Source of the DNA: a virus
Reading direction: 5' to 3' (one strand)
Length of the DNA: 64,000 nucleotides
Virus record (IMG/VR): IMGVR_UViG_3300007513_002727
Coordinates: 28,943 to 92,942 of that record
Shown here piece after piece: positions 8,957 to 55,204 of the stretch. Under the pieces are notes generated by a model. That model worked only from the letters and a program-made list of their open reading frames with translations, made no database searches and was not told the origin of the DNA. Numbering within the stretch: position 1 is the first letter of the stretch; every line of letters starts with the position of its first letter. The position numbers and the translations under genes were made by a program.

Positions 8957-9376
8957 ATGAATAATAACCTTCGGCAGGTGGATCTTGTATCAACAACGAA
9001 AGGTTTGTTGAACCTTCATCAATTTTGGAACAAACCTATTGTGGTATTCAACAGTGCATCTTTCTGTGGCTTTACTAATCAGTTGTCCGCTTTTGAAGAA
9101 CTGCACAAGACAGGCAAAGTAATACCTATTGCCCTGCCAACAAATGAATTTGGTGCCCAAGAACCTGGACACTCTCTAGAAATCAATCAACACTACTGTA
9201 AGAAATACAACGTGACATATCCAATAATGGACAAGACAGATCTAGAACATAAATTTTTTAAAACTTTTGGCATACCAGACTGGAACTTCAATAAATGGTT
9301 ATTTGATTCTAAACACAATTTTGTTAAGAAGTTTAACAGTAGAACCCAACCAATGAAAATGCTTGAATATGTCTGA
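8957..9376 (+). CDS. Glutathione-peroxidase-like thioredoxin-fold protein
   Basis: 139 residues with the GPx layout: FNSASFCGFTNQL (Cys37 at the peroxidatic position), PTNEFGAQEPG at about 61-71, and WNFNKWLF (Trp109, Asn110). The family reduces peroxides using glutathione or thioredoxin. The usual catalytic Gln of the NQFG motif is Glu64 here, so one of four catalytic-tetrad residues is changed; Cys81 could be a resolving cysteine. Activity may be altered. The gene overlaps the following radical SAM gene by 8 bp. Confidence 0.85.
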   Translation: MNNNLRQVDLVSTTKGLLNLHQFWNKPIVVFNSASFCGFTNQLSAFEELHKTGKVIPIALPTNEFGAQEPGHSLEINQHYCKKYNVTYPIMDKTDLEHKFFKTFGIPDWNFNKWLFDSKHNFVKKFNSRTQPMKMLEYV

Positions 9377-10637
9377 TACATTTTGCACTTATCCGTTTAA
9401 ACATCTCTACATAGAAACCAATGGACGACAGAAGTTGTGTTGTATGCCTAACGAGTTCATAGAAAAGAATGATGGATACAGACAGTACCAAATGAAGGAT
9501 GGGATCTTTTCTAGTTGGAACAGCGACTACATGAAAGACACAAGGTTGAAAATGCTTAACGGACAAAAAGTTAGTGCCTGTGAAAAATGTTACTTACTAG
9601 AATCTCATGGACAAAAAAGTTTAAGGCAAAACGGCGGACGAGGTAAGCCGGAATGGTTTAAAGATGATATAGAGTCCAATGGCACTATGAAGACCATGCC
9701 GACTGATATAGAACTGCACTTTGGAAACGTCTGCAACTTGAAATGTAGGATGTGCAGTCATTATTTCTCACACATGATCGGCAAAGAGCTGTTGGCTGTG
9801 CAACAAGATGATCCAGATTTTTTCCGTTGGATACAGGAGCAAGGAGGCAACGTTAATAATTGGGCCACTGGAGATTTGACAGAAGTCTATGACTGGTACA
9901 AGGACAAGTCTGTATTAGAAAACACGTTTGAAGAAATATACAATCATGTACAAAGTATAAGAGTGATTGGTGGAGAACCAACAATTATTCCTGAGTTCTG
10001 GCAGATGTTCAAATATCTCAAATCCAAGAACAGTCTCAAAGACAAGTTTATAAAAATCACCACAAACGGTACTAACACAAATCCAAAGATGACCGAATGG
10101 TTTGCTGAAATGAAAGGTGTAGAGATTATGATAAGTCTCGACGGACTTGATCTTAGAAACAGGTATATCAGGTACCCATCAAACTGGCAGGCAATAATGA
10201 AGAACATTAGAGAATACAAAGCAATCGCAAACCTACATCCATCTGTGAGACCATTTGTGGCACCAACGCCACAAATATTAAATGTAGATCAATTAACTGA
10301 TTTCTGTATATTCTTCGAGAACGAAGAAGTCGCCGTTGGAATAAATCCAGATGTTGTCAGTCCCAAGATATGTAATTTTAATTATTTCCCAATGGAGTAT
10401 AAAAAGATTGTAGTTGATAAATTGAACACTAACCTCGCAAAGGTCAAAAACAACACCAACAGAACACACATTGAAAACACTATTAAAGTCCTACAGCAAG
10501 ATTTCAATAAACAAGAAATAGATCAAAACATAAGAAACTTTGTCAAATACAACGATTACATGGATAAGTTTAGAAACACAGATTCATGGAGAGACTTGTT
10601 ACCAGAACTTGCAGAAGTTATAGAAAAAAGATTATAG
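9369..10637 (+). CDS. Radical SAM protein with SPASM/twitch-type cysteines
   Basis: 422 residues from the ATG at 9369. The radical SAM cluster motif is CNLKCRMC (Cys122, 126, 129). The N-terminal CTYPFKHLYIETNGRQKLCC with ACEKC near 70 supplies an auxiliary-cluster set of cysteines as in twitch/SPASM proteins. RVIGGEPT is the GGE motif. Such proteins modify peptides or small molecules by radical chemistry. Relatives are frequent in marine T4-like phages, with unknown substrates. It is convergent with a second protein of the same type. Confidence 0.88.
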   Translation: MSDTFCTYPFKHLYIETNGRQKLCCMPNEFIEKNDGYRQYQMKDGIFSSWNSDYMKDTRLKMLNGQKVSACEKCYLLESHGQKSLRQNGGRGKPEWFKDDIESNGTMKTMPTDIELHFGNVCNLKCRMCSHYFSHMIGKELLAVQQDDPDFFRWIQEQGGNVNNWATGDLTEVYDWYKDKSVLENTFEEIYNHVQSIRVIGGEPTIIPEFWQMFKYLKSKNSLKDKFIKITTNGTNTNPKMTEWFAEMKGVEIMISLDGLDLRNRYIRYPSNWQAIMKNIREYKAIANLHPSVRPFVAPTPQILNVDQLTDFCIFFENEEVAVGINPDVVSPKICNFNYFPMEYKKIVVDKLNTNLAKVKNNTNRTHIENTIKVLQQDFNKQEIDQNIRNFVKYNDYMDKFRNTDSWRDLLPELAEVIEKRL

Positions 10638-17008: not shown

Positions 17009-18106
17009 ATGAGTAAAACTATTTTTAATCAGTCTAAGATAGACTTCACTAAACAACCAATGTTCTTTGGTGAAGATCAAAACGTACAAAGGTTTGATAC
17101 CTACAAGTATCCTATATTTGATAAACTAACACAAACACAACTAGGATACTTTTGGAGACCTGAGGAAGTATCATTACAAAAAGACAGATCAGATTACGCA
17201 CAGTTCCGTCCAGAGCAAAAGCATATCTTTACATCTAATTTAAAATATCAAACACTATTAGATAGTGTACAAGGACGTGGTCCAGTAATTGCATTTTTAC
17301 CATATTGTTCACTACCAGAGTTGGAGGCTTGTATTGTTGTATGGGATTTCTTTGAAACACTACACTCACGTTCTTACACACATATTATTAAAAATATATA
17401 TCCAAACCCAAGTGACGTACTTGATAAAATTGTAGATAACGAACAAATATTAAAAAGAGCAACATCAGTTACAAAATATTATGATGAATTTATTGAATAT
17501 GCAAAACAATGGGACGTTAATGGAAAAGGATCAACAAGAGTATTAAAGAAAAAGCTATATCTAGCAATGGCAAATGTTAATATATTAGAAGGATTAAGAT
17601 TCTATGTTTCGTTTGCTTGTACCTTTGCATTTGGTGAATTAAAACTTATGGAAGGTTCTGCTAAAATATTATCATTAATTGCACGTGATGAATCACAACA
17701 CCTAGCAATTACAACACATATCATTAAAAATTGGATAAATGGTGATGACCCTGAAATGAAGCCACTTATAAAAGAATGTAAAGATGAAGTAATTAAAATG
17801 TGGAAAAATTGTATTAATGAAGAAAAACAATGGTGCAACTATCTATTCAAAGATGGATCAATAATTGGACTTAATGAACGACTACTATCCAAATATGTAG
17901 ATTTTATTGCAAATAAAAGAATGAAAGCATTAGGATTTGATCCAATATTTGATGCACCAAAACTAGATCCACTACCATGGACGCAACATTGGTTAAGTTC
18001 TAAGGGTATGCAAGTGGCTCCAATGGAAACAGAAATAGAAAGTTATATCATCGGTGGTATCAAACACGACGTTGAAAAGGATCAATTCAGCAAATTTAAG
18101 TTATAA
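17009..18106 (+). CDS. nrdB: Ribonucleoside-diphosphate reductase, class Ia, beta subunit
   Basis: 365 residues, full length for the family. Metal ligands and the radical tyrosine are visible in WDFFETLHSRSYTHI (the Tyr of SRSYTH corresponds to E. coli Tyr122), with ARDESQHLAITTHII as the second iron-ligand helix. It holds the diiron-tyrosyl radical needed by NrdA, and is therefore an iron user in a phage that also carries iron uptake genes. It follows nrdA directly; a TTAAATA box lies 8 nt before the ATG. Confidence 0.97.
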   Translation: MSKTIFNQSKIDFTKQPMFFGEDQNVQRFDTYKYPIFDKLTQTQLGYFWRPEEVSLQKDRSDYAQFRPEQKHIFTSNLKYQTLLDSVQGRGPVIAFLPYCSLPELEACIVVWDFFETLHSRSYTHIIKNIYPNPSDVLDKIVDNEQILKRATSVTKYYDEFIEYAKQWDVNGKGSTRVLKKKLYLAMANVNILEGLRFYVSFACTFAFGELKLMEGSAKILSLIARDESQHLAITTHIIKNWINGDDPEMKPLIKECKDEVIKMWKNCINEEKQWCNYLFKDGSIIGLNERLLSKYVDFIANKRMKALGFDPIFDAPKLDPLPWTQHWLSSKGMQVAPMETEIESYIIGGIKHDVEKDQFSKFKL

Positions 18107-19754: not shown

Positions 19755-20345
19755 TTATTCCAACAGCTCGTGAATACCGTAATATAAGAAGTAAATTGCT
19801 AGGCCAGTAAATATCCAACGACTAGCTCTCCATATTTTAGCAACTGGAATTTTTCTAATTTGTTTTGATGCTACTAGGCCGACTATAAGCAAAGCACCCA
19901 ATCCAATCACAGCACCTAATCCAATACTCATTACAGATGTACCTGCGTACATTAATGCTGTAAGAAATGCTACAATTTCTGCGCCTTCTCTAAACACGGT
20001 AAGAAATACAATTAATGCCAATGCCAATATTGGTCCATTACTTTTTAAATTAGCCTGAATAATTTTTGTATGTTGTACTGCTCCATGACAGAACCATGCT
20101 GTCCAAAACAATAATCCAGAGGCGGCCAGTGCCGTCCATCCTTCTACTGCTTCAAAGTCGTTTGCAATGAACTGTTGAGCAAAGTATCCTAATATCACTG
20201 CACAAACAAGTGCTAATGCTGTTGATCCTAATATTGTTATTTTTTGTCTATAATTGGTTACCATTAGCCAAGCCATCTGTACTATTAGATATGCTTCTAA
20301 GCCTTCTCTAAACCAAATAAACGTAGGTGCTAATGTTCCTGTCAT
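19755..20345 (-). CDS. FTR1/EfeU-family iron permease
   Basis: 196 residues, about six hydrophobic segments. The two hallmark R-E-G-x-E motifs are present: WFREGLEAYLIV (residues 12-23) and VFREGAEIVAF (about 117-127), which bind ferric iron in the membrane. It is shorter than typical bacterial FTR1 proteins (about 270 or more residues) but keeps both motifs. It is the last gene of a reverse operon with bL12, and a 19-bp dyad lies 11 bp before its start codon. A phage-carried iron importer is unusual. Confidence 0.88.
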   Translation of the reverse strand: MTGTLAPTFIWFREGLEAYLIVQMAWLMVTNYRQKITILGSTALALVCAVILGYFAQQFIANDFEAVEGWTALAASGLLFWTAWFCHGAVQHTKIIQANLKSNGPILALALIVFLTVFREGAEIVAFLTALMYAGTSVMSIGLGAVIGLGALLIVGLVASKQIRKIPVAKIWRASRWIFTGLAIYFLYYGIHELLE

Positions 20346-20419: not shown

Positions 20420-20791
20420 TTATTTCAACTCTACAGTTCCGCCGGCTTCTTCTAACTGCTTTTTAAGTTTTTCAACTTCTTCTTTTTCAATATCTTCTTT
20501 AACTGGTTTTGGTAAATCCTCAACAAAATTCTTGGCTTCTATTAACCCTAATCCTAATATATCTTTAATTGCTTTTAATACTGGAATTTTTTTGTTCTCA
20601 CCAAATCCTGTTAGCATAACGGTTGCAGTTGCTTTCTCTTCTGCTGGTGCTGATGCTGATGCTTGGGCAGGTGCTGATTGTAAGTTATCTAGGTCTATGT
20701 TCCACTCTTTGGCTAGTTTTTTAGATAGGTCTAGTGCTTCTAGAACTGTAAGTTGCCCTAGTTCCTTCACTAATGTATCTATATTTGCCAT
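20420..20791 (-). CDS. rplL: 50S ribosomal protein bL12 (L7/L12)
   Basis: 123 residues with the full bL12 plan: N-terminal dimerisation helices (LVKELGQLTVLEALDLSKKLAKEW), an Ala-rich hinge (SAPAQASASAPAEEK), and the C-terminal domain with KIPVLKAIKDILGLGLIEAKNFVEDLPKPVKE. The C-terminal domain recruits translation factors to the ribosome. Phage copies of bL12 are known from viral surveys. Here it lies between a 44-aa basic protein and the iron permease on the reverse strand. It could replace host L12 in the stalk. Confidence 0.95.
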   Translation of the reverse strand: MANIDTLVKELGQLTVLEALDLSKKLAKEWNIDLDNLQSAPAQASASAPAEEKATATVMLTGFGENKKIPVLKAIKDILGLGLIEAKNFVEDLPKPVKEDIEKEEVEKLKKQLEEAGGTVELK

Positions 20792-20935: not shown

Positions 20936-21139
20936 TTATCTTCCTATCTTCTTTTTTCTACCAATTGGTAATTTTTGTTCTTTAACGAAAACCTCCCCTT
21001 TTTTCGTCTCCCACTCAATAGTTACCATCGGAGCCTTAGAAGATGCTTGAAACGACTTTAGAGCTTTCTTAAATGATGTTGCCTCAATTATTTTTTCTTC
21101 TGTTCCAGATATAATTTTAAATTCTCTCATTTTTGACAT
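20936..21139 (-). CDS. Small basic protein, first gene of the bL12-FTR1 operon
   Basis: 67 residues, beta-strand-rich (EFKIISGTEEKIIEATSFKKALKSF) with a basic end (GRKKKIGR). Function unknown. Its start codon lies 8 nt after a TACATT -10 box, so the mRNA may be leaderless. It is divergent from the tmRNA gene. Confidence 0.65.
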   Translation of the reverse strand: MSKMREFKIISGTEEKIIEATSFKKALKSFQASSKAPMVTIEWETKKGEVFVKEQKLPIGRKKKIGR

Positions 21140-21147
21140 AATAATTT

Positions 21148-21190
21148 AATGTAACATAAGATTGACTTTTTGTCAACTGTATGCTTAAAT
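21148..21190. promoter_or_regulatory. Overlapping divergent promoters (bL12 operon / tmRNA)
   Basis: TTGAC-TTTTT-GTCAA at 21162-21176 gives a -35 on each strand. Reverse: TTGACA (21176-21171), 17-bp spacer, TACATT (21153-21148). Forward: TTGACT (21162-21167), 17-bp spacer, TTAAAT (21185-21190) with a TGC extended -10. The two promoters share the same 15-bp dyad, so they would compete or be co-regulated. Confidence 0.55.
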
Positions 21191-21196
21191 ATTAAT

Positions 21197-21495
21197 AAGT
21201 TTGTTGACTAATAATTAATAAGCGGACAAGACGAGAGTTCGAATCTCTCCACCTCCACCAAATTTTGGTGGCTTATGTAATCCCTTTCGGGGGTGTTATT
21301 GGAAATCGATTGACGTCTAAACTTGTTACGAGAACTTGGACATGGTACTGACCTAACAGGCCGTTTTTAAATGCAAACAAAAGAGCATTAGGATTTGCTG
21401 ACTTTACAGTTGGTATGTCTGAATTGAGATTAGCGGCGTAATAACTGTTTAATTTCTGGGGTTTGGCCCACCTCGCAACAGAACGGGCCACTTCA
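21197..21495 (+). ncRNA. ssrA: Circularly permuted (two-piece) tmRNA
   Basis: The acceptor piece comes first: T-arm GAGAG-TTCGAAT-CTCTC (21233-21249), then CACCTCC and ACCA ending at 21260. A 28-nt spacer forms a hairpin with the CCA end. The coding piece starts at 21289 with GGGGGTG, which pairs fully with CACCTCC including a G3-U70 wobble, the alanine identity pair. Its 5' sequence (TTGGAAATCGA) fits tmRNA. The tag frame runs from GCA at 21373 to TAATAA at 21439, 22 residues beginning ANKRALG and ending ELRLAA. AAACTT/AAGTTT can form P2 between the pieces. It frees stalled ribosomes and tags the product for ClpXP. The 5' and 3' ends are estimates. Confidence 0.92.
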
Positions 21496-21573
21496 TTTAA
21501 AACAACATATAACTTATACCGTCATATAATTGATGCAACTATTGATTTAAATAATTGCGTCAAGGGGGAGGGT

Positions 21574-21885
21574 ATGTTTAAAAAGGCACAAAAACGAACA
21601 AATTATTGGTCTAAGATCAGAAAGAAGGCACCTAAAGTCCCTGATATAACTTGTCCTGACATTGATTGGGTAGTAAATCAATTAGAAAAAGCCATAGGCA
21701 AATCAATAACACAAACACAGTTTAAAAGAATAGAAAAAAAGATGGAAAAATTAAGAATAACAAACGAACAATTAAGAGAAAGCGGAATATACTGGCATGA
21801 CGCTTGTAAAGAAACTGTTCGTGATTTACTTGGAAAGAAAAAGAACTCTGATACACCGTGGTTTTATAGGAGCTCTTTGGATTAG
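21574..21885 (+). CDS. Small basic hypothetical protein
   Basis: 103 residues from the ATG at 21574, chosen because GGGGGAGGG lies just upstream; a longer in-frame extension would run into the tmRNA. Lys-rich and helical, with DITCPDIDWVVNQLEKAIGK and a C-terminal ESGIYWHDACKETVRDLL. Not recognised. It begins a run of small forward genes. Confidence 0.65.
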   Translation: MFKKAQKRTNYWSKIRKKAPKVPDITCPDIDWVVNQLEKAIGKSITQTQFKRIEKKMEKLRITNEQLRESGIYWHDACKETVRDLLGKKKNSDTPWFYRSSLD

Positions 21886-41556: not shown

Positions 41557-42810
41557 ATGGGAGATGATAGTTTAGTCTGTTCCTTTTGCAGTAAATCTCG
41601 AAAAGACGTTACAAAAATGATTGTAGGTGCAACTAAAGTTGCTATCTGTAATGAGTGTGTAAAACTTTGTATTGAAATATTAGATGAAGACATAATTAAA
41701 TCCAAAGCAGAACAATTTGCTAAAGGTGATAAAGATATTCTTAACCCTGTTAATATTAAAGAATATTTAGATCAATATATTATAGGACAAGATGCCGCAA
41801 AAACTGTATTGTCAGTAGCAGTATCTAACCACTATAAAAGAATTACAAATCCACCTAAAGATTTTGAGTTAGATAAATCAAATGTATTATTATTAGGAGC
41901 CACTGGTGCAGGTAAAACACTTATGGCTAGAACAATAGCACAATATTTAGATGTACCTGTTGCTATTGCAGATGCAACAACATTAACCGAGTCTGGCTAC
42001 GTTGGTGAAGATGTAGAAAATGTAGTACAAAAATTATACGCAAATTCAAGTGGTGACATTCAAAAAACTGAACGTGGTATTATATTCATAGATGAAATAG
42101 ATAAGATTACACGTAAAAGTGAGAATACTTCTATAACAAGAGATGTATCTGGAGAAGGTGTACAACAAGGATTACTTAAAATTGTAGAAGGAACTGAATG
42201 CAGAATTATGCCACAGGGAGGCAGAAAACATCCTGACCAACAAATGGTTACTATTAATACTAAAAATATATTGTTTATAGTAGGTGGGGCATTTACAGAA
42301 TTAGAAAAACAAATACGAAACAGAAAATCAAGTGGTATTGGTTTTGGTTCTAAATTAAAAGACGATGATATAAAAAATTATCTTATTGACGTAAGACCCG
42401 AAGACTTAATAAAATATGGCCTAATTCCAGAATTTGTAGGAAGATTTTCAATGATTACTCATGTTGATGATTTAAGTGAATCACAATTAGTGCAAATACT
42501 TACAGAGCCTAAAAATGCTTTAATAAAACAAATGCAATATTTGTTTGGATTAGACGAGATTAAATTAGAATTTAGCAAAGATGCCAAACTATCTGTTGCT
42601 AAAAAAGCCAAAGCATTAGGTACAAATGCCCGAGGTTTGAAAAATATTGTAGATAGAGTATTATTACCATTCCAATTTGATGCCCATGAAATGAAAAATA
42701 AAGGTGTCATCACAATTAAAATAACAAGTGACGTGGTTGACAAAAATGCCGATCCAGTGTTACTATTTAAGAAGCAAGATGGAACAATACCAAAGAAACA
42801 ATCAGTTTAA
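41557..42810 (+). CDS. clpX: ATP-dependent protease unfoldase ClpX
   Basis: 417 residues, full length. Zinc-binding domain cysteines 8, 11, 31, 34; Walker A GATGAGKT (114-121); pore-1 loop GYVG (147-150); Walker B IIFIDEIDK; RKH loop (223-225); and the ClpP-docking IGF loop (261-263). All parts needed to unfold LAA-tagged substrates and pass them to ClpP are present. No clpP lies in the window, so it would dock on host ClpP. It is grouped with bS21, hsp20, dnaK and clpS, and the phage tmRNA tag ends in LAA. Confidence 0.97.
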   Translation: MGDDSLVCSFCSKSRKDVTKMIVGATKVAICNECVKLCIEILDEDIIKSKAEQFAKGDKDILNPVNIKEYLDQYIIGQDAAKTVLSVAVSNHYKRITNPPKDFELDKSNVLLLGATGAGKTLMARTIAQYLDVPVAIADATTLTESGYVGEDVENVVQKLYANSSGDIQKTERGIIFIDEIDKITRKSENTSITRDVSGEGVQQGLLKIVEGTECRIMPQGGRKHPDQQMVTINTKNILFIVGGAFTELEKQIRNRKSSGIGFGSKLKDDDIKNYLIDVRPEDLIKYGLIPEFVGRFSMITHVDDLSESQLVQILTEPKNALIKQMQYLFGLDEIKLEFSKDAKLSVAKKAKALGTNARGLKNIVDRVLLPFQFDAHEMKNKGVITIKITSDVVDKNADPVLLFKKQDGTIPKKQSV

Positions 42811-43234: not shown

Positions 43235-43687
43235 ATGAAAAACAATCTATCTATCTTTAATAACTTAAGACCCATAACAGTAGGGTTTGACAATATGTTT
43301 GATCATTTTGAACATATGTTAGACGACGGCGGTTTCTTTAGAAACGGTACTGTTAGTAACTTCCCACCTTACAATATTGAAAAGACTGGAAAAAATTCTT
43401 ATAATGTAGAACTTGCACTTGCAGGTTTTAATAAAAAGGATATAGAAGTTACATATGAGGATAACCTTTTATCAGTAAAATCTAAAAAAGAAGATACTAC
43501 TGAACAAACTGATGCCGATGGTAATATGATTCATAGAGGTATTTCAAAAAGATACTTCGCAAAATCATTTACTATTGCAAACGACGTTGAAATAAAAGGA
43601 GCTGAACTTAAAGATGGTTTACTTGTAATTGCTTTGGAACGAATACTTCCGGAGGCAAAAAAAGCAAAAACTATCGAAATAAAGTAA
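43235..43687 (+). CDS. Small heat-shock protein Hsp20
   Basis: 150 residues. An alpha-crystallin domain spans about 47-145: PPYNIEKTGKNSYNVELALAGF, the EVTYEDNLLSVKSKK strand pair, DGLLVIALER (G-x-L motif), and a C-terminal IEI that docks on neighbouring subunits. It holds unfolding proteins for DnaK. Hsp20 genes are common in T4-like marine phages. It has both a sigma70 and a late-type promoter. Quoted segments are partial. Confidence 0.93.
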   Translation: MKNNLSIFNNLRPITVGFDNMFDHFEHMLDDGGFFRNGTVSNFPPYNIEKTGKNSYNVELALAGFNKKDIEVTYEDNLLSVKSKKEDTTEQTDADGNMIHRGISKRYFAKSFTIANDVEIKGAELKDGLLVIALERILPEAKKAKTIEIK

Positions 43688-43771: not shown

Positions 43772-45661
43772 ATGAGTAAAATTATAGGAATAGACTTAGG
43801 TACTACAAATTCATGCGTATCATTAATGGAAGGTACACAGGCAAAAGTATTAGAAAATGCAGAAGGCAAAAGAACAACACCTTCAATAGTAGCATTTGGA
43901 GATGAGAAATTAGTTGGAGAACCTGCTAAAAGACAAGCGGTTTCAAATCCAGCAAATACAATATTCGCGGCTAAAAGATTAATTGGAAGAAAATTTGATG
44001 GAGATTCTGTACAAAAAGATGTACAAACATCACCTTTTAAAATAGTAAAAGCAGATAATGGAGATGCTTGGATTGAAGCAAAAGGTAAAAAATATTCACC
44101 AGCACAGATCTCAGGTTTCGTTTTACAAAAAATGAAAGAAACTGCTGAAAAATATTTAGGACAAGAAGTTAAAAAAGCTGTAATAACAGTACCAGCATAC
44201 TTTAATGACTCACAAAGACAAGCAACAAAAGACGCAGGTAAAATTGCAGGACTTGAAGTTGAACGTATTGTAAACGAACCAACTGCGGCGGCACTTGCAT
44301 ATGGTTTAGATAAAAAGAAATCAGGCACAGTTGCAGTGTACGACCTAGGTGGTGGTACATTTGATATATCTATATTAGAAATAGGCGACGGAGTATTTGA
44401 AGTTAAATCTACAAATGGTGATACATCATTAGGTGGAGAAGATTTTGATAATGTTCTAGTTGATTATCTTTGTAGTGAATTTAAAAAAGATACTGGTATA
44501 GACATAAAAACAGACAATTTAGCACTTCAAAGAATTAAAGAAGCGGCAGAAAAAGCTAAATGTGAATTATCATCAGCATTACAAACAGATATTAATTTAC
44601 CATTTCTTACTGCTGATAAAACTGGACCAAAACACTTAAACATTAAACTTACAAGAGCAAAATTTGAATCATTAACAGAATCATTAATTAGAAAAACATT
44701 TGCTCCTTGTAAAACAGCATTAAAAGATTCAGGAATTAGTAAAGACAAAATAGATGAAGTTATCCTTGTAGGAGGTATGACTCGTATGCCAAAAGTATTA
44801 GAAACAGTTAAAAGTTTCTTTGGCAAAGAACCACACACAGGAGTTAATCCAGACGAAGTTGTAGCAATTGGAGCCGCAATACAGGGTGGAGTATTACAAG
44901 GTGACGTTAAAGATGTATTACTTTTAGATGTAACACCTTTATCACTTGGTATTGAAACACTTGGTGGTGTTGCTACTAAACTTATTGAAAAGAATACAAC
45001 AATACCTACAAAGAAAAGTCAAGTATTTTCAACTGCTGAAAACAATCAAGCGGCAGTTACAATTAGAGTTGTACAGGGTGAAAGAGAAATGGCTACTGAC
45101 AATAAACAACTTGGAAACTTTAACTTAGAAGGCATTCCACCAGCACCAAGAGGTGTACCTCAAATTGAAGTAACATTTGATATAGATGCAAATGGTATTG
45201 TAAATGTGTCTGCAAAAGATAAAGGCACAGGTAAAGAACAAAAAATTACAATACAAGCATCAGGTGGATTAAGTGAAGCCGATATTGAAAAAATGGTTAA
45301 AGATGCTGAAGCAAACAAAGAAGCAGACAAAAAGAAAAGAGAAGAGGTTGATGCTAGAAATCATGCTGACACACTTGCTGACTCTACAGAAAAATCACTT
45401 AAAGAACACGGTGACAAAGTTTCTGTAGAAGATAAAACAAAAATAGAAACTAGCCTAGCTGATTTAAAAGAAGCACTTAAAGGTAATGACGTTGAATCTA
45501 TAAAAAGTAAAACAGGTGCCCTTACCGAAGCATCAATGAAACTAGGTGAAGCAATCTATAAAACTCAACAAGAACAAGCAAAACCAGAAGCAACTGAGAG
45601 TACATCAGGCGGTGAAAAAGAAGACGTTGTTGATGCAGATTTTGAAGAAGTTAAAAAATAA
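43772..45661 (+). CDS. dnaK: Hsp70 chaperone DnaK, complete
   Basis: 629 residues with every landmark: [61 protein letters not shown], the linker [19 protein letters not shown], a complete substrate-binding domain and lid, and the [10 protein letters not shown] end typical of bacterial DnaK. It is not a fragment. No dnaJ or grpE is seen here, so it would use host partners. A full DnaK in a phage is rare and suggests strong demand for folding. It has its own promoter. Confidence 0.97.
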
Positions 45662-45724: not shown

Positions 45725-46024
45725 ATGGCAACAAATATACAAACACTAACCAAAGAAAAAACTAAACTTGATGAACCAAGTTTATACGATGTTATTTTTT
45801 TAAATGATAATATTACTACGCAGGAATTTGTAGTTAGGGTTTTAAAACAAATTTTTAATAAATCACAAGAACAAGCAGAAGCAATTATGAAAAAAATACA
45901 TAATGACGGACAAGGTACTGTAGGTTCTTATGTCCACGAAGTTGCAGAACAAAAAGGCATTGAGACTACTTTACTTGCACGGCAAGAAGGAATGCCACTG
46001 CAAATAAAAGTTAAGAGACAATGA
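45725..46024 (+). CDS. clpS: Clp protease adaptor ClpS
   Basis: 99 residues. DVIFLNDNITTQEFVVRVLKQIF and AEAIMKKIHNDGQGTVGSYVHEVAEQK match ClpS, including the ND pair and the His of the N-degron pocket; it ends in MPLQIKV. ClpS delivers N-end-rule substrates to ClpAP and can inhibit SsrA-tag degradation by ClpA. With phage ClpX and tmRNA it may steer host proteolysis. The next gene starts 3 bp before its stop. Quoted motifs are partial. Confidence 0.92.
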   Translation: MATNIQTLTKEKTKLDEPSLYDVIFLNDNITTQEFVVRVLKQIFNKSQEQAEAIMKKIHNDGQGTVGSYVHEVAEQKGIETTLLARQEGMPLQIKVKRQ

Positions 46025-48816: not shown

Positions 48817-49023
48817 ATGATAAAAGAAGCACTTATAAAAAAACTAGAAGGCGATATTGCTAAAATAGAAGCTAACATTGTAACTTACCTAAGCAATCCT
48901 ATTTCTGTAGTAGCAGATCATATTGATTATATTACTCCTATTGAAAAGGAATTAGAAAAGTTATCTGCGGCGAAAGGTAAATTAGTATCTTTAAAAAATA
49001 TTAAATTTAAGTTAGATGAATGA
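48817..49023 (+). CDS. Small coiled-coil protein at the head of the SUF operon
   Basis: 68 residues, a helix-rich heptad pattern ([19 protein letters not shown], then [18 protein letters not shown]). It has no recognised family. It overlaps sufB by 8 bp and is the first gene after the SUF promoter. It might be a scaffold or regulator for the operon, which is a guess from position. Confidence 0.6.
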
Positions 49024-50446
49024 TGTACTTCAAGACCGACTTAACAAAAAATATGATGCTGGGTTTACAACAAACGTTGAATCAGTAACATTACCTCCAG
49101 GCCTTAACGAAGACATAGTAACACAAATCTCAAAAATTAAAAAAGAACCTAAATGGTTGCTTGAATTTAGATTAAAAGCATACCAACGATGGAAAATTTT
49201 AAAACAGCCTGATTGGGCAAATCTTAATATTAAACCTATAGACTATCAAGCAATATCATATTACTCAGCACCAAAGCCAGGTCCTAAATCATATGATGAT
49301 GTAGATCCTGAAATTAAAAAAGACTTTGAAAAGTTAGGCATACCATTAGCAGAAAGAGCCGCACTAGCAGGTGTAGCCGTTGATGCAGTATTTGATTCTG
49401 TATCTATTGCAACTACATTCAAAGATAAGTTAGCAGAACTAGGAATTATATTTTGTTCATTCTCAGAAGCAGTACAAAAACATCCTGATCTAGTAAAAAA
49501 ATATATGGGCTCTGTTATTCCAATTACAGACAATTATTTTGCAACATTAAATTCTGCTGTCTTTACAGATGGAACTTTTGTTTATGTTCCTAAAGGAGTA
49601 AGATGTCCTATGGAACTATCTACATACTTTAGAATCAATGCGGCTAACACAGGACAATTTGAACGGACTTTAATTATAGCTGACGAAGGAAGTTATGTAA
49701 GTTATTTAGAAGGCTGTACTGCACCAATAAGAAAAGAAAGTCAATTACACGCCGCCAACGTAGAACTTGTAGCATTAGATGATGCAGAAATAAAATATTC
49801 AACAGTACAAAATTGGTACCCAGGAGATAAAGATGGCAAAGGCGGCATATACAATTTTGTAACTAAACGTGGAAAATGTAAAGGAACAAACTCAAAAATT
49901 TCTTGGACACAAGTAGAAACAGGATCAGCTATTACTTGGAAGTATCCAAGTTGTATATTACAAGGAGATAATTCTACTGGTGAATTTTATTCTGTTGCTG
50001 TAACAAACAATTATCAACAAGCAGATACAGGTACTAAAATGATACACCTAGGCAAAAATACAAAATCAACTATTGTATCTAAAGGAATTTCGTTAGGACA
50101 CTCATCAAATACATATAGAGGTTTAGTAAAAATTAATAAAAATGCTGACAATTCAAAAAACTTTACTCAATGCGATTCATTAATGCTAGGTAATAATTGT
50201 TCTGCTAGAACTATACCATATATTGAAAATAAAAATGTATCTAGTAATTGCAGTCACGAAGCAACTACATCCAAAATTAATGATGAACAATTATTTTATG
50301 CAAGGCAACGTGGACTAGACGAAGAAAATGCTACTAATTTAATTGTAGCAGGATTCTGTAAACAAGTATTTCAAAACTTACCTATGGAGTTTGCAGTAGA
50401 AGCCAATAAACTATTAGAAGTTAGTATGGAAGGAGCAGTTGGATAA
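49016..50446 (+). CDS. sufB: Fe-S cluster assembly protein SufB
   Basis: 476 residues, full length. PEWLLEFR-type start ([16 protein letters not shown]), [40 protein letters not shown], and the C-terminal [21 protein letters not shown] are all SufB signatures. SufB is the scaffold on which Fe-S clusters are built with SufC and SufD. It heads sufB-VOC-sufE-sufC. A phage-carried SUF scaffold is unusual and points to a need for Fe-S assembly during infection. Quoted motifs are partial. Confidence 0.96.
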
Positions 50447-50874
50447 TGGCAAATAGATTTCATTTAGCAATACCGGCTGGAGATATAGATACGTCAATAA
50501 AATTTTATTGTGACATATTAGGCTGTAAAAGAGGTATGGCAGAATTTAAGTATCCAGATGCTTGGGCAGACATTGACTTTTGGGGCAACGAATTAACACT
50601 ACACGCAACAGATCCTAACAAAAAAAATATAGGTGAAAGACACAATGTAGATATGGGTAATGTATCTGTTCCTCACTTTGGTGTGCATTTAGACGCACAA
50701 ACATTTAAAAATGTAAAAGAAAGACTAATACAAAATAATATAAAATTTATAGATCCACCTTTTATAAGATTTAAAGGTGAAAGCAGAGAACAGGAAACAA
50801 TGTTTATCGAAGACCCAAATGGCAACTGCTTAGAAATTAAAACAATGAGGAATCCTGATGAATTATTCAAATAA
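50446..50874 (+). CDS. VOC/glyoxalase-superfamily protein
   Basis: 142 residues with one full VOC module pair: RFHLAIPAGDIDTSIKFYCDILG, HFGVHLDAQTFKNVKERL and FIEDPNGNCLEIKT, giving the His/Glu metal ligands. VOC enzymes range from glyoxalase I to ring-cleaving dioxygenases and antibiotic-binding proteins, so the substrate is open. Its place between sufB and sufE is odd; it shares 1 bp with sufB. Quoted motifs are partial. Confidence 0.85.
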   Translation: MANRFHLAIPAGDIDTSIKFYCDILGCKRGMAEFKYPDAWADIDFWGNELTLHATDPNKKNIGERHNVDMGNVSVPHFGVHLDAQTFKNVKERLIQNNIKFIDPPFIRFKGESREQETMFIEDPNGNCLEIKTMRNPDELFK

Positions 50875-51265
50875 ACTTACAGAATATAAAAATAATATCG
50901 AAGCCTTACAAGAAATCGATAATTTAGAAGTTTATAGATGGTTAATTTCACTTGGTGCAAAGTTAGACGATGATCCTTTAAGTGAAGAAAAACGTATTGA
51001 CAAAAATAAAGTTAGTCGTTGTCAATTTGACTTATACGTTGATTTTGAAGATGGCAAATTTAAAGCATGGAGTAATGCCGCAATAGCAGGTGGCTATGCT
51101 TATATATTGTTAGATATTTTTAATTCACTACCTCCAACAACAAAAATTACAGTAGAAGATTTTCAACAAATTAAACTAGACAAACTATTAACAATGAATA
51201 GAACAACCGGCTTCTATCAAATGATTGAAATGATTATAAAGAAAATACAAAATGCTAAAAATTAA
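50858..51265 (+). CDS. sufE: SufE-like sulfur acceptor
   Basis: 135 residues. WLISLGAKLD, NKVSRCQFDLYV (Cys55 at the sulfur-accepting position), and AIAGGYAYILLDIFN fit SufE. The usual NKVxGCxSxVW motif is altered to NKVSRCQFDLY, but the cysteine is kept. SufE takes persulfide sulfur from a cysteine desulfurase and passes it to SufB. No sufS or iscS is in the window, so it would rely on a host desulfurase. Confidence 0.85.
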   Translation: MNYSNKLTEYKNNIEALQEIDNLEVYRWLISLGAKLDDDPLSEEKRIDKNKVSRCQFDLYVDFEDGKFKAWSNAAIAGGYAYILLDIFNSLPPTTKITVEDFQQIKLDKLLTMNRTTGFYQMIEMIIKKIQNAKN

Positions 51266-51989
51266 AAATTTAAAAGTATCAATTAATAATAAAGAAATAA
51301 TAAAAGATTTAAATCTTGAAATTAAACAAGGCGAGATTCATGCCCTCATGGGTCCAAACGGTTCTGGCAAAAGTACTTTGTCTAATGTTTTAGCTGGAAA
51401 AGATGGCTATAATGTTACAGGAGAGATACTTTACAAAGGAGAAGATCTTTTAAAAATGTCAATAGAAGAAAGAGCAAGAAAAGGATTGTTTATGGCTTTT
51501 CAATATCCTATAGAAATTCCTGGTGTTAATACAATTAATTTTTTAAAAAGTTCTTTAAATGTGGTTCGAAAATCTAATAAAAAAGAAGCAATAGATACTT
51601 TTGAATTTTTAGATTTAGTAAAAGAAAAAGCTAAAGCTCTTAATGTTAATGGTTCTATACTTAATAGACATCTAAACGTAGGGTTCTCGGGTGGAGAAAA
51701 AAAGAAAAATGAAATATTACAAATGTCTGTTTTAGAACCTATGTTTGCTATTTTGGACGAAACAGATTCTGGATTAGACATTGATTCTTTAAAAATAATT
51801 TCTAATGGTATTAATTCTTTAAGAAGTATATGTAGATCTTTTTTAATTATTACACACTATCAACGTTTATTAGAACACATTAAACCAGACTTTGTTCACG
51901 TACTTGCAGATGGAAAAATAATCAAAACTGGTTGCAGTGAATTAGCTGAAGAATTAGACAAAGTAGGATATGGAGATAAAAATAGTTAG
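51252..51989 (+). CDS. sufC: SUF ATPase SufC
   Basis: 245 residues, ABC ATPase: MGPNGSGKSTLSNVLAG (Walker A), FSGGEKKKNEILQ (signature), AILDETDSGLDIDSLKI (Walker B with SufC-type DSGLD), and the H-loop ITHYQRLL. It drives conformational change of the SufB/SufD scaffold. It overlaps sufE and the TonB receptor gene, so all are translated together. Confidence 0.95.
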   Translation: MLKIKNLKVSINNKEIIKDLNLEIKQGEIHALMGPNGSGKSTLSNVLAGKDGYNVTGEILYKGEDLLKMSIEERARKGLFMAFQYPIEIPGVNTINFLKSSLNVVRKSNKKEAIDTFEFLDLVKEKAKALNVNGSILNRHLNVGFSGGEKKKNEILQMSVLEPMFAILDETDSGLDIDSLKIISNGINSLRSICRSFLIITHYQRLLEHIKPDFVHVLADGKIIKTGCSELAEELDKVGYGDKNS

Positions 51990-53643
51990 AATAGTTCTAA
52001 TATTATTCTTTGCATGGATTACTACGATTCAAGCAGAGATTGTAACAATAGAAAAACGTGGTGTTGCAGATGATATTATAACTTGTGAATGGGAAAACCA
52101 AGCAGGTGTTCCTTGTGTTACAATTAGCAAATCATTACCCAATTCAAATGCAATATCAGATAAAGTTTCTCCCACAACTGTAATCACTAAAAAACAAATT
52201 GAAGAAAATAATTTAATTGACTTACCTAAAGTTTTAAATTTTGTTAATGGTATCAATGTAACACAATCTGGATCAACTGGACAACAAACGTCTGTGTTTA
52301 TGAGAGGTACAAACTCAAACCATACATTAGTTTTATTAAATGGCATACCTATTAATGATTTTTCTACTCCAACAGGAGCATTTGACTTTGGACAAGACTT
52401 TATGTCTACTGTTACGCAAGTTGAAGTTTATAAAGGAAGTGCTGGTGCTCACTTCGGTGCTGATGCTATTGGTGGTGCTATTAATTTTGTAACTACTGTT
52501 GACTATGAAAACAAATTTTCAGTTGGTGGCAATGGTGACAGTAAAACTATACAAGGAAATTACACAAAAGTTTTAAACGACTGGCATATAAACGTACAAG
52601 GTGGAACACACGAATCTGAAACAGTATCAGCATTATCAGGTGGTGCTGAAACAGATGGAACTAAAAATAAATCAATTGGCGTTAATATTATAAAATGGTT
52701 TTCAGACAAATTAAAATTTAGATCTAGTTTGTTTACACGAAACACATTTACAGAGTTAGATGGACATTCGTTGGCTATTGAAAATGGATTTAGCGATAAT
52801 TCGTTTTATGCTTTTCAAACCGGATTTGATTATATAACTAAAGACTCCATCAACTCCCTAACACTTCATACACACGAATACGATAGAGAATATGAGTCTG
52901 ACAATTACAATTCTAAATCTTATACTATCAGAACAGAACACCAAACTAAAAAGTATGGATTAGGATTTGATTACAAATACGATCAATCACTAACTGCTGA
53001 TAATGATAATGTTGGCTTATTTGGAAATTTTAATTACAACATTTTTTCATTTCATGCAAGAAAAGATAATGACAACGATAGTTATAAAGTAGGATTTTTT
53101 AAAGAGATAGCACCTAACTTTAATATTAGAGGTAACCATTCAACAGGATATAAAAATACAACTCTTTATACACTAGAAGAACAAAGTAATTCAAACGAAT
53201 TAAGTTTTGATTATAATGATTTGACATTATCTCTTTTTCAATCTGATATTGGTGATTTAAACACAGATGGCGTAGAACTATCTTATAATATTGACAACTT
53301 TACAATATATGGATCACATTTAAACAGTAAGAAAAATGATACAATTCAATTAAGACGTCCTGAATGGATTCTTGGTGTTAATCATAATACACTATTACCT
53401 GACAATTTCCAATTAATTACAAATTACAAATTTGTAGGAGAGCATCTAGACGTACATAATTCCAATTGGTCTACTATTCCTATGCCAGAAACACACTTAT
53501 TAGACATAGGTATAACAAAAAACTATTGGGGTTACGAGTTAGGTTTAAATATTAATAACATATTAGATGAAGATTATGAAGCACCACATGGTTTTAGTCA
53601 AAATGGTCGAAACCTTAATTTTATCTTTAAAAGAAAATTCTAA
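51970..53643 (+). CDS. TonB-dependent outer-membrane receptor
   Basis: 557 residues. The signal peptide is about 1-22 (IVRIVLILFFAWITTIQAE). The plug domain has PTTVITKKQIEENNLIDLPKVL, VFMRGTNSNHTLVLLNGIPIND and VEVYKGSAGAHFGADAIGGAINFVT, followed by a beta-barrel ending in the outer-membrane signature Phe (FIFKRKF). BtuB-like or siderophore-type specificity is possible. It overlaps sufC by 20 bp, so it is tied to iron-sulfur metabolism; a B12-type radical SAM gene follows. Quoted motifs are partial. Confidence 0.92.
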   Translation: MEIKIVRIVLILFFAWITTIQAEIVTIEKRGVADDIITCEWENQAGVPCVTISKSLPNSNAISDKVSPTTVITKKQIEENNLIDLPKVLNFVNGINVTQSGSTGQQTSVFMRGTNSNHTLVLLNGIPINDFSTPTGAFDFGQDFMSTVTQVEVYKGSAGAHFGADAIGGAINFVTTVDYENKFSVGGNGDSKTIQGNYTKVLNDWHINVQGGTHESETVSALSGGAETDGTKNKSIGVNIIKWFSDKLKFRSSLFTRNTFTELDGHSLAIENGFSDNSFYAFQTGFDYITKDSINSLTLHTHEYDREYESDNYNSKSYTIRTEHQTKKYGLGFDYKYDQSLTADNDNVGLFGNFNYNIFSFHARKDNDNDSYKVGFFKEIAPNFNIRGNHSTGYKNTTLYTLEEQSNSNELSFDYNDLTLSLFQSDIGDLNTDGVELSYNIDNFTIYGSHLNSKKNDTIQLRRPEWILGVNHNTLLPDNFQLITNYKFVGEHLDVHNSNWSTIPMPETHLLDIGITKNYWGYELGLNINNILDEDYEAPHGFSQNGRNLNFIFKRKF

Positions 53644-53659: not shown

Positions 53660-55204
53660 ATGAAACGAGTAGCACTCTTAATAGCACCACGAATACAAGA
53701 TGATTTTGGTTATACTCCTGCAGGTCCGGCTTTAGTAAAAGGATCAATTAAAAAAGCAGGACATGACTGTAAAATTTTTGATTTTAACAGTGATCTTGAA
53801 AGAGAATATCAAGATTCAGAAATAGTTCCAATTGATAATTGGTTTATGAATCACAATTTCTATTCTGATAAAATCTATAAAAAAATACATGCTTTAATAG
53901 ACAAGTGGACTGATGACGTCTTACAGTATGCACCAACCGACGTCGGAATAAGTGTATTTTCGTACAACAGTCAACGAGCAACTATAATGCTGGCAACAAC
54001 CTTAAAAAGTAAAAATCCAGATATAAAAGTTTTTATTGGTGGAGCAGGATTAAACACTGATAACAAGTTTGGCAAATATTGTATGGATGAAAAAATTATT
54101 GACTGCTGGATACGTGGAGAGGGTGAACTATCAGTTCTAGCATATCTAGAAGGAAATCTTTCACATCCTGGACTTAATGGAATTCCACCAAAACAAATAG
54201 ACAACATTGACGATTTAGAATTTCCTGATTACAGTGATTATGAACTAGCCTCATATACTAACAAAAAAGGATTAGTTGCTTTACCTATTACAGGATCTAG
54301 AGGTTGTGTTAGAGCCTGTACATTTTGTGATATTGCAAGTATGTGGCCAAAATATAAATTTAGATCAGGTAAAAGTATTGCAAAAGAAATTAAAACACAG
54401 GTTAAGAAGTATGGTGCTAAAGCATTTAGATTTACCGATAGTTTAATTAATGGTTCAATGAAAGCATTTAGAGATATGACATACGAACTATCTAAATTTA
54501 GAATGGCTATAAAACCTGAAGATAGATTTATTTGGGATTCTCACTTTATTGTAAGAAATGAAAAACAAATGCCACCTCAGGACTTTAAAGTAATGGCAGA
54601 GTCTGGTGCAGGAACTTTACTAATAGGAGTAGAATCTGGATCAGCAAAAGTAAGAGAACATATGAAAAAAGGTTATACTGACGAAGATTTACATTACAGT
54701 CTCGAACAAATATTTAAAAACAATATTAAAGTAAGATTTTTAATGATAATAGGGTACCCTACTGAAACAGAAGAGGACTTTCAACAAACATTAGACTTTT
54801 TTAATAGGTATGCTGAATATGGTCGCCAAGGATTAGTTGAGGAAGTAAATTTAGGACTTACTTTAAATCTTTTACCTAACACACCTTTATATGATAATGC
54901 TGAAAAGTTTGGACTTGATACAACAAAAGATCACATAAATGATTGGATATGTACTCAAAACCCAACATTAGATTTTAAAGAACGATTAAAAAGAAGAATA
55001 AATGCTCAACACTATGTTGAAAACTTAGGTTATAAAGTTTTTGAATCTAAAAATTATACTAGAGCATTGTCAATTGCTTGGAACGAAGTTAGTAAAATAC
55101 AAATAGATAACACTATTAAAATTGATGCTAGTAAAATAAAATTTGATAGAGAAAAAGGAATATTGGAACAGTCACCAGACTTTGATCCATTAAGAACTTA
55201 TTAA
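53660..55204 (+). CDS. B12-binding-type radical SAM protein
   Basis: 514 residues. The N-terminal about 190 form a Rossmann-like B12-binding-type domain (PAGPALVKGSIKKAGHDCKIFDF, VGISVFSYNSQRATIML, KVFIGGAG). Then come GSRGCVRACTFCDIA with cluster cysteines 216, 220 and 223, the GVESGS motif and a TIM-barrel. The canonical DxHxxG B12 ligand is not evident. Such enzymes methylate or rearrange unactivated carbons. It requires a 4Fe-4S cluster, consistent with the adjacent SUF genes. Quoted motifs are partial. Confidence 0.85.
   Translation: MKRVALLIAPRIQDDFGYTPAGPALVKGSIKKAGHDCKIFDFNSDLEREYQDSEIVPIDNWFMNHNFYSDKIYKKIHALIDKWTDDVLQYAPTDVGISVFSYNSQRATIMLATTLKSKNPDIKVFIGGAGLNTDNKFGKYCMDEKIIDCWIRGEGELSVLAYLEGNLSHPGLNGIPPKQIDNIDDLEFPDYSDYELASYTNKKGLVALPITGSRGCVRACTFCDIASMWPKYKFRSGKSIAKEIKTQVKKYGAKAFRFTDSLINGSMKAFRDMTYELSKFRMAIKPEDRFIWDSHFIVRNEKQMPPQDFKVMAESGAGTLLIGVESGSAKVREHMKKGYTDEDLHYSLEQIFKNNIKVRFLMIIGYPTETEEDFQQTLDFFNRYAEYGRQGLVEEVNLGLTLNLLPNTPLYDNAEKFGLDTTKDHINDWICTQNPTLDFKERLKRRINAQHYVENLGYKVFESKNYTRALSIAWNEVSKIQIDNTIKIDASKIKFDREKGILEQSPDFDPLRTY

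Follow-up and report, generated by a model that had tools for sequence, protein, structure and literature searches.

A two-piece tmRNA gene with a conserved 22-residue tag, and a distinct ClpX, in a lineage of uncultivated phages

Is a circularly permuted transfer-messenger RNA (tmRNA) gene carried by a virus a working part of the viral programme, and, if so, which unfoldase reads the tag that it encodes? The question is raised by a stretch of 64,000 nucleotides (the window), which comprises bases 28943-92942 of the 92,942-base IMG/VR virus record IMGVR_UViG_3300007513_002727, a record that may be a fragment. A circularly permuted (two-piece) tmRNA gene is located at window positions 21197-21492 on the plus strand by covariance models and by direct reading of the sequence, and a full-length gene for the unfoldase ClpX lies at 41557-42810 on the same strand. 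Probably, the window represents a lineage of uncultivated marine phages that operates a working two-piece tmRNA together with its own ClpX and borrows SmpB and ClpP from the host.

The permuted tmRNA model of Rfam (RF04321, tmRNA_permuted) matches 21197-21441 over its whole length (model positions 1-213) with 80.8 bits (cut-off 47; E 6.9e-14), and the alphaproteobacterial model (RF01849, alpha_tmRNA; positions 1-355) matches 21141-21492 with 59.2 bits (cut-off 50). Both scores bear out the original prediction, made from the sequence alone, of a permuted two-piece tmRNA in a phage record. In the Rfam listing for the gene, which omits overlapping clan members with lower scores, the best score of the clan is that of the alphaproteobacterial model. 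ARAGORN likewise reports a tmRNA (21165-21532), with the tag GMSELRLAA; this tag start was rejected, because it falls 39 nucleotides downstream of the conserved resume codon, inside the frame.

The acceptor segment comes first in the sequence and is followed by the 5′ segment, the two being joined by a 7-bp acceptor stem. The acceptor piece (21197-21260, plus strand; 5′ end approximate), delimited by RF04321, contains the T-arm (21233-21249), the 3′ strand of the acceptor stem (CACCTCC, 21250-21256) and ACCA (21257-21260). An intervening segment of 28 nucleotides between CCA and GGGGGTG (21261-21288, plus strand; 19-33 nucleotides across the 24 genes described below) is expected to be removed. 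The coding, mRNA-like piece (21289-21492, plus strand) starts with GGGGGTG (21289-21295), which forms seven pairs with CACCTCC, including G3-U70, and all these elements lie where the original prediction had read them. The 3′ end of this piece is the end of the RF01849 match, 21492, and the previously given 21495 is approximate. The resume codon GCA at 21373 opens a frame of 22 codons, ANKRALGFADFTVGMSELRLAA, closed by TAA TAA at 21439-21444, so that the tag frame with its two stop codons spans 21373-21444 on the plus strand. Immediately upstream is a putative sigma70-like promoter, TTGACT-17-TTAAAT (21162-21190, plus strand; consensus match), the -35 element of which is spanned by the palindrome TTGAC-N5-GTCAA. 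When the region as a whole is folded by thermodynamics alone, z is -1.48; this value was set aside, since it says little about a permuted RNA made of two pieces.

A degenerate tag pattern retrieved 17 viral contigs, together with one contig in a Candidatus Pelagibacter metagenome-assembled genome (MAG) among 84,980 species genomes; RF04321 matches 16 of the 17 viral contigs and the MAG contig. The seventeenth contig (G016) ends inside the tmRNA gene and is left out of the gene counts. Because this first set had been chosen by the tag, further records were recruited by ClpX alone: of 172 loci encoding a relative, 80 were kept, 14 of them at 68-79% identity, and seven of these 14 were new. RF04321 matches six of the seven, each with a 22-residue tag resembling that of the window. 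The window, 16 tag-recruited contigs, the MAG contig and the six ClpX-recruited records make up a set of 24 genes. Throughout this set (24/24) the acceptor stem keeps seven of seven pairs, in three stem sequences, with G3-U70, the alanine identity pair, invariant, and the T-stem keeps five of five pairs, in seven different stems. The T-loop is of the GTTCGA type in some genes and of the GCAGTA type in others, the latter resembling GCGGTA of SAR11-family genes. A promoter-like TTGACA/T-17-TATAAT or TTAAAT, identified by consensus match, lies just upstream of 24/24 genes, with the -35 palindrome in 21. As judged from these alignments, the anatomy of the tmRNA gene is no chance match, because the acceptor and T-stems have changed in a compensatory way among the 23 related genes, all of which share the 22-codon frame. 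The two outcomes named beforehand as refuting the original prediction, lack of any permuted-model hit and loss of the acceptor stem and tag frame in related phages, are both contradicted by these results.

The tag, which reads approximately ANKKALGFADLTVGMSELRLAA, has 22 codons in 24/24 genes (16 of these found by the tag) and ends in LRLAA or MRLAA, a hydrophobic Ala-Ala signal, in all of them, in agreement with the earlier reading of a 22-residue tag from 21373 ending in LAA. All 24 tags contain ALGFAD unchanged; most of them were found by a pattern fixing part of it, but the six ClpX-recruited tags agree. Across the 24 genes, the DNA of the tag has a mean pairwise identity of 0.93, as against 0.68 for the acceptor piece, 0.70 for the segment between GGGGG and the tag and 0.73 for the downstream part. 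Among the window and the six records not chosen by the tag, the variable tag sites at codon positions 1, 2 and 3 number 5, 3 and 11, and the mean ratio of nonsynonymous to synonymous variation (pN/pS) is 0.31; the value for all 24 genes, 0.25, is biased because most members were recruited by the tag. On these comparisons, the tag peptide is lineage-specific and under purifying selection.

The alphaproteobacterial ssrA genes described by RF01849 and RF04321 share with the window gene the permuted order, the acceptor and T stems, the resume region GCAAAC and the 3′ element CACCTCGCAACAGAA. RF04321 is present in 112 of the 147 genomes that belong to the same family as the Pelagibacter MAG, and the tags of the 30 best-scoring SAR11-family loci (the MAG's own two excluded; resume codon placed by homology) all have nine residues, for example ANESYALAA and ANDKFALAA, whereas the window tag has 22, and the T-arms vary within the one phage lineage. 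As to the originally proposed capture of the gene from a host, the suggested comparison with SAR11 tags lends no support to straightforward copying of a SAR11-type gene: the tag is unlike those of 30/30 loci in length and sequence, and it has stayed nearly constant in a gene that otherwise varies. In a database of 97,179 sequences, 10 is reported as the commonest tag length (PMC11915505). A tblastn search of phages with the 22-residue tag gave no match at E 10, a weak negative for so short a query.

The start of the tag (21373-21402, ANKRALGFAD) resembles residues 301-311 of NrdB (17909-17941, ANKRMKALGFD), and the DNA is also alike save for a 6-nucleotide gap; derivation from, or mimicry of, NrdB was left as a curiosity, because the match is short (E 0.03-0.05) and the ANKRMKALGFD-type motif is common to the NrdB proteins of the lineage. 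A second viral group carries a tag of 23 residues, ANAFKPEVTVP[VM]S[IV]FAD[AQ]ELVAA, in 16 of the 44 contigs that a search with an acceptor pattern retrieved (L002, L005, L009, L011, L012, L016, L019, L020, L021, L025, L027, L028, L035, L036, L038 and L040), and a ClpX zinc finger was found in none of the eight records of this group that were tested. In the Pelagibacter MAG there is a further permuted tmRNA (L081 486-731; 67.5 bits), whose long open frame ends in ESVYAMAA and which may stem from a different phage.

The candidate reader of the 22-residue tag is the ClpX of the window (PF06689, PF07724; best PDB match ClpX, E 1e-126). The zinc finger, Walker A and B, GYVG, TRDVSG (pore-2) and RKH are kept in 15/15 members of its clade, as is an IGF-type loop (GIGFG in 10, GMGFG in four, GMGFN in one), which in ClpX is the ClpP-binding loop. 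The contacts of ClpX with the SsrA tag have been assigned to Tyr153, Val154, Thr199, Val202, Arg228 and His230, and the terminal Ala-Ala has been described as the most important element of the tag (PMC7652416); by motif, the six residues correspond to GYVG, TRDVSG and RKH. In a tree, the clade and the copy in the MAG form one group with support of 100/100, apart from seven SAR11-family ClpX. Identity to the window ClpX is 68-79% within the lineage and 76% for the phage-like copy of the MAG, and it is 51-55% for SAR11-family ClpX, of which a near-full-length match was found in 46 of 59 other genomes of the MAG's family. Sequence comparison thus marks it as a distinct phage ClpX with its motifs intact. 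It occurs together with the tmRNA in 14 of the 15 virus records of the ClpX clade, eight of the 15 having been first met by way of the tag or the window. Conversely, a ClpX zinc finger is present in 8 of 18 tag-bearing virus records, window included: in 7/7 of those longer than 36 kb and in 1/11 of the shorter ones.

Three further genes follow ClpX on the plus strand: Hsp20, a small heat-shock protein (43235-43687; PF00011, 1.9e-17), DnaK (Hsp70; 43772-45661; PF00012, 1.1e-273) and the adaptor ClpS (45725-46024; PF02617, 1.5e-25). Hsp20 is downstream of ClpX in 13, ClpS is present in 12 and DnaK in one of 14 clade loci, counts in which contig ends cut some flanks.

The presence of ClpX, DnaK, SufB and a TonB plug suggests that the window could be a piece of a bacterial chromosome, and this reading was rejected. 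Many window genes are found again in a single lineage of IMG/VR contigs, the ClpX is just 51-55% identical to SAR11-family ClpX, and PHROG matches include an endolysin, a virion structural protein, an exonuclease and tail-spike-like proteins. Of the 86 distinct open reading frames (ORFs), part of those in the window, that were scanned with PHROGs, none was assigned to a terminase or major capsid family, and DnaK and SufB each have a match in one relative locus. The evidence points to SAR11 or a similar bacterium as host, because phage contigs were binned with a Pelagibacter MAG, the G+C content is 32.9% and the tmRNA is of the alphaproteobacterial type. One pelagiphage has been reported without tmRNA (PMC10504331). 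Among 50,697 phage records, from which records very near the window may be omitted, neither tmRNA DNA nor ClpX (identities below 60%) led to a close relative.

Phage permuted tmRNA as such is not new, because the OM43 phage Melnitz has been published with one of alphaproteobacterial affinity, like that of the window (PMC9004378). Of the 133 unique phage tmRNA structures counted in that 2022 report, 53 are two-piece forms, 50 of which are marine or aquatic, and its authors proposed that phage permuted tmRNA selectively tags host proteins (PMC9004378). Melnitz has a glutamine riboswitch (PMC9004378), whereas the four Rfam matches at E up to 1 in 2.3 kb around the window tmRNA gene include no riboswitch; the words ClpX, ClpS and DnaK are absent from the Melnitz main text (PMC9004378).

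Nor is the pairing of tmRNA with ClpX unique to the lineage, because Bacillus phage G, Prevotella phage Lak-B2 and Sinorhizobium phage Phosso have both. The permuted model RF04321 was run on four jumbo phages. Phosso, a 469-kb cultured isolate that infects Sinorhizobium meliloti (PV764938.1), unites in one complete genome an annotated ClpX, 52% identical to that of the window, and a permuted tmRNA at 349596-350198 on the minus strand (L237; RF04321, 113.3 bits), where none is annotated; it differs in its 13-residue tag, ANDNVSTKVALAA, with an ALAA end, and in its long intervening segment. The jumbo phages G, for which ssrA is listed in the literature (PMC4131195), and Lak-B2 likewise have a tmRNA match and a ClpX homologue (48-49% identical to the window ClpX) in one genome, but their tmRNAs match the standard form RF00023 (67.6 bits in G; 47.3 bits, just over the cut-off, in Lak-B2) and not RF04321, and in phage G a ClpP-like gene adjoins ClpX. 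Agrobacterium phage Atu_ph07 shares ClpX, ClpS and chaperones with the window (PMC6102473), but neither RF00023 nor RF04321 matches a tmRNA in it above the cut-off, and its ClpX lies by topoisomerase genes.

In the pathway proposed for the lineage, a permuted precursor would be driven by the sigma70-like promoter and cut into the acceptor and coding pieces by host tRNA-processing enzymes. Host alanyl-tRNA synthetase would charge the acceptor by way of G3-U70, and host SmpB would deliver the tmRNA to stalled ribosomes, where the nascent chain would gain the phage tag ending LRLAA. The tagged protein would then be unfolded by the phage ClpX, which keeps the SsrA-contact loops and the ClpP-binding loop, and degraded in host ClpP. 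From transcription, processing, charging and tagging to the use of host SmpB and ClpP and the role of phage ClpX as tag reader, these steps are what we infer from the genes. The likely benefit would be that ribosomes stalled on cut or damaged mRNA are freed during takeover and that amino acids are recycled. A stronger and still tentative form of the proposal is that tag and unfoldase are an orthogonal pair, the 22-residue tag being read preferentially by the lineage's own ClpX while ClpS perhaps occupies host ClpA elsewhere; degradation of the products of stalled ribosomes would thereby be under viral rather than host control, with only SmpB and ClpP supplied by the host.

The chief rival, which is possible though somewhat doubtful, is that the phage tmRNA merely tops up ribosome rescue, that host ClpXP takes the tagged proteins, that phage ClpX serves elsewhere, in replication control or virion assembly, and that the long tag is baggage of the lineage. 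Such plain rescue agrees with the LAA end of 24/24 tags, which should suit host ClpX too, and with 23 of 32 other ClpX-bearing viral records, drawn from the remaining 66 ClpX loci, in which a search covering the permuted form found no tmRNA. The tmRNA and ClpX, moreover, are not neighbours: they lie approximately 10-22 kb apart, the side and strand of ClpX relative to the tmRNA vary, and the arrangement in the window and in G007 differs from that in the other six records. Several further points weigh against the proposed pathway. One ClpX-clade record of 45.9 kb (G180) has no RF04321 match. Nine of the 32 other ClpX-bearing records do have a permuted tmRNA, none with this tag, and several of their tags are ordinary and short, such as ANDEQFALAA; phage ClpX therefore does not need this tag, since these records and Phosso have others. 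Clp proteins of a jumbo phage have been discussed, in the part of the source available, without any tmRNA (PMC6102473). SmpB and ClpP were each found in none of the 25 virus records, which is weak evidence for borrowing because all of the records may be incomplete; in the Pelagibacter MAG, SmpB is matched over nearly its full length and ClpP only in part. Against plain rescue stands the combination of tmRNA and ClpX in nearly every virus record of the ClpX clade, as counted above, but this co-occurrence may reflect only phage kinship and, because of shared descent in one lineage, does not distinguish plain rescue from tag reading by the phage ClpX.

An improbable alternative is that the extra residues of the tag act beyond degradation, by binding a phage partner or by routing chains to a place or an adaptor such as ClpS or the small conserved neighbours of the tmRNA. 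The invariance of ALGFAD, the agreement of the ClpX-recruited tags and the frequency of ClpS in the clade loci are in keeping with this, and phage pf16 encodes an SspB adaptor, with no tmRNA mentioned there in the part of the report available (PMC5587285). Two small conserved ORFs also flank the tmRNA. A divergent ORF of 67 residues (20936-21139, minus strand) adjoins the promoter and, in the loci compared, is 67-73% identical to 17 distinct relatives and 40% identical to one more; downstream, a lineage-conserved ORF of 103 residues (21574-21885, plus strand) has 11 distinct relatives at 43-74%. Structure models of the two gave no function, and no known adaptor fold was found: the AlphaFold2 (AF2) model of the 67-residue ORF (predicted local distance difference test score, pLDDT, 84) has no PDB match with E at or below 0.001, a search that was not extended to the poor model of the 21574 ORF (pLDDT 58.6). 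It is very unlikely that the tmRNA is a functionless host gene that was captured or is decaying, such as a remnant left by integration at a host tmRNA locus, a kind of site often used for integration (PMC11915505), because the gene is whole, its three acceptor-stem sequences are fully paired, the promoter-like site and tag frame are kept in 24 genes and the tag is not of the SAR11-family type.

Elsewhere in the window, a gene for ribosomal protein bL12 with both domains (20420-20791, minus strand; PF00542, 3.6e-25; PF16320, 3.8e-07) lies close to the tmRNA, and relatives of it occur in two further records of the compared loci; virus-encoded bL12 is already known (PMC6375957). The original prediction had supposed a phage interest in ribosome rescue or in retargeting host proteins for degradation: bL12 and the ClpX, ClpS, Hsp20 and DnaK of the window fit translation and proteolysis, and the retargeting idea had already been published (PMC9004378). 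Additional observations are an apparent iron and iron-sulfur gene set, with SufB, SufE, an ATP-binding cassette ATPase, a TonB-plug protein and an FTR1-like permease (49016-53643, and 19755-20345 on the minus strand), and several radical S-adenosylmethionine proteins in one phage record (window 9363-10637 and 53660-55204; L062 2225-3319 and 3308-4399).

The matches listed in the open-licence PMC literature include no account of a phage tmRNA whose tag is read by a phage ClpX. Within the searches made, what is new is an uncultivated lineage in which a 22-residue tag is fixed and which has a ClpX-Hsp20-ClpS set of its own. A tag and a candidate reader, ClpX, are here found in one viral lineage, each different from its SAR11-family version and each conserved. 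If the pair is selective, the virus would be taking over a bacterial route of quality control, and the tag and its reader would provide an orthogonal degron of natural origin.
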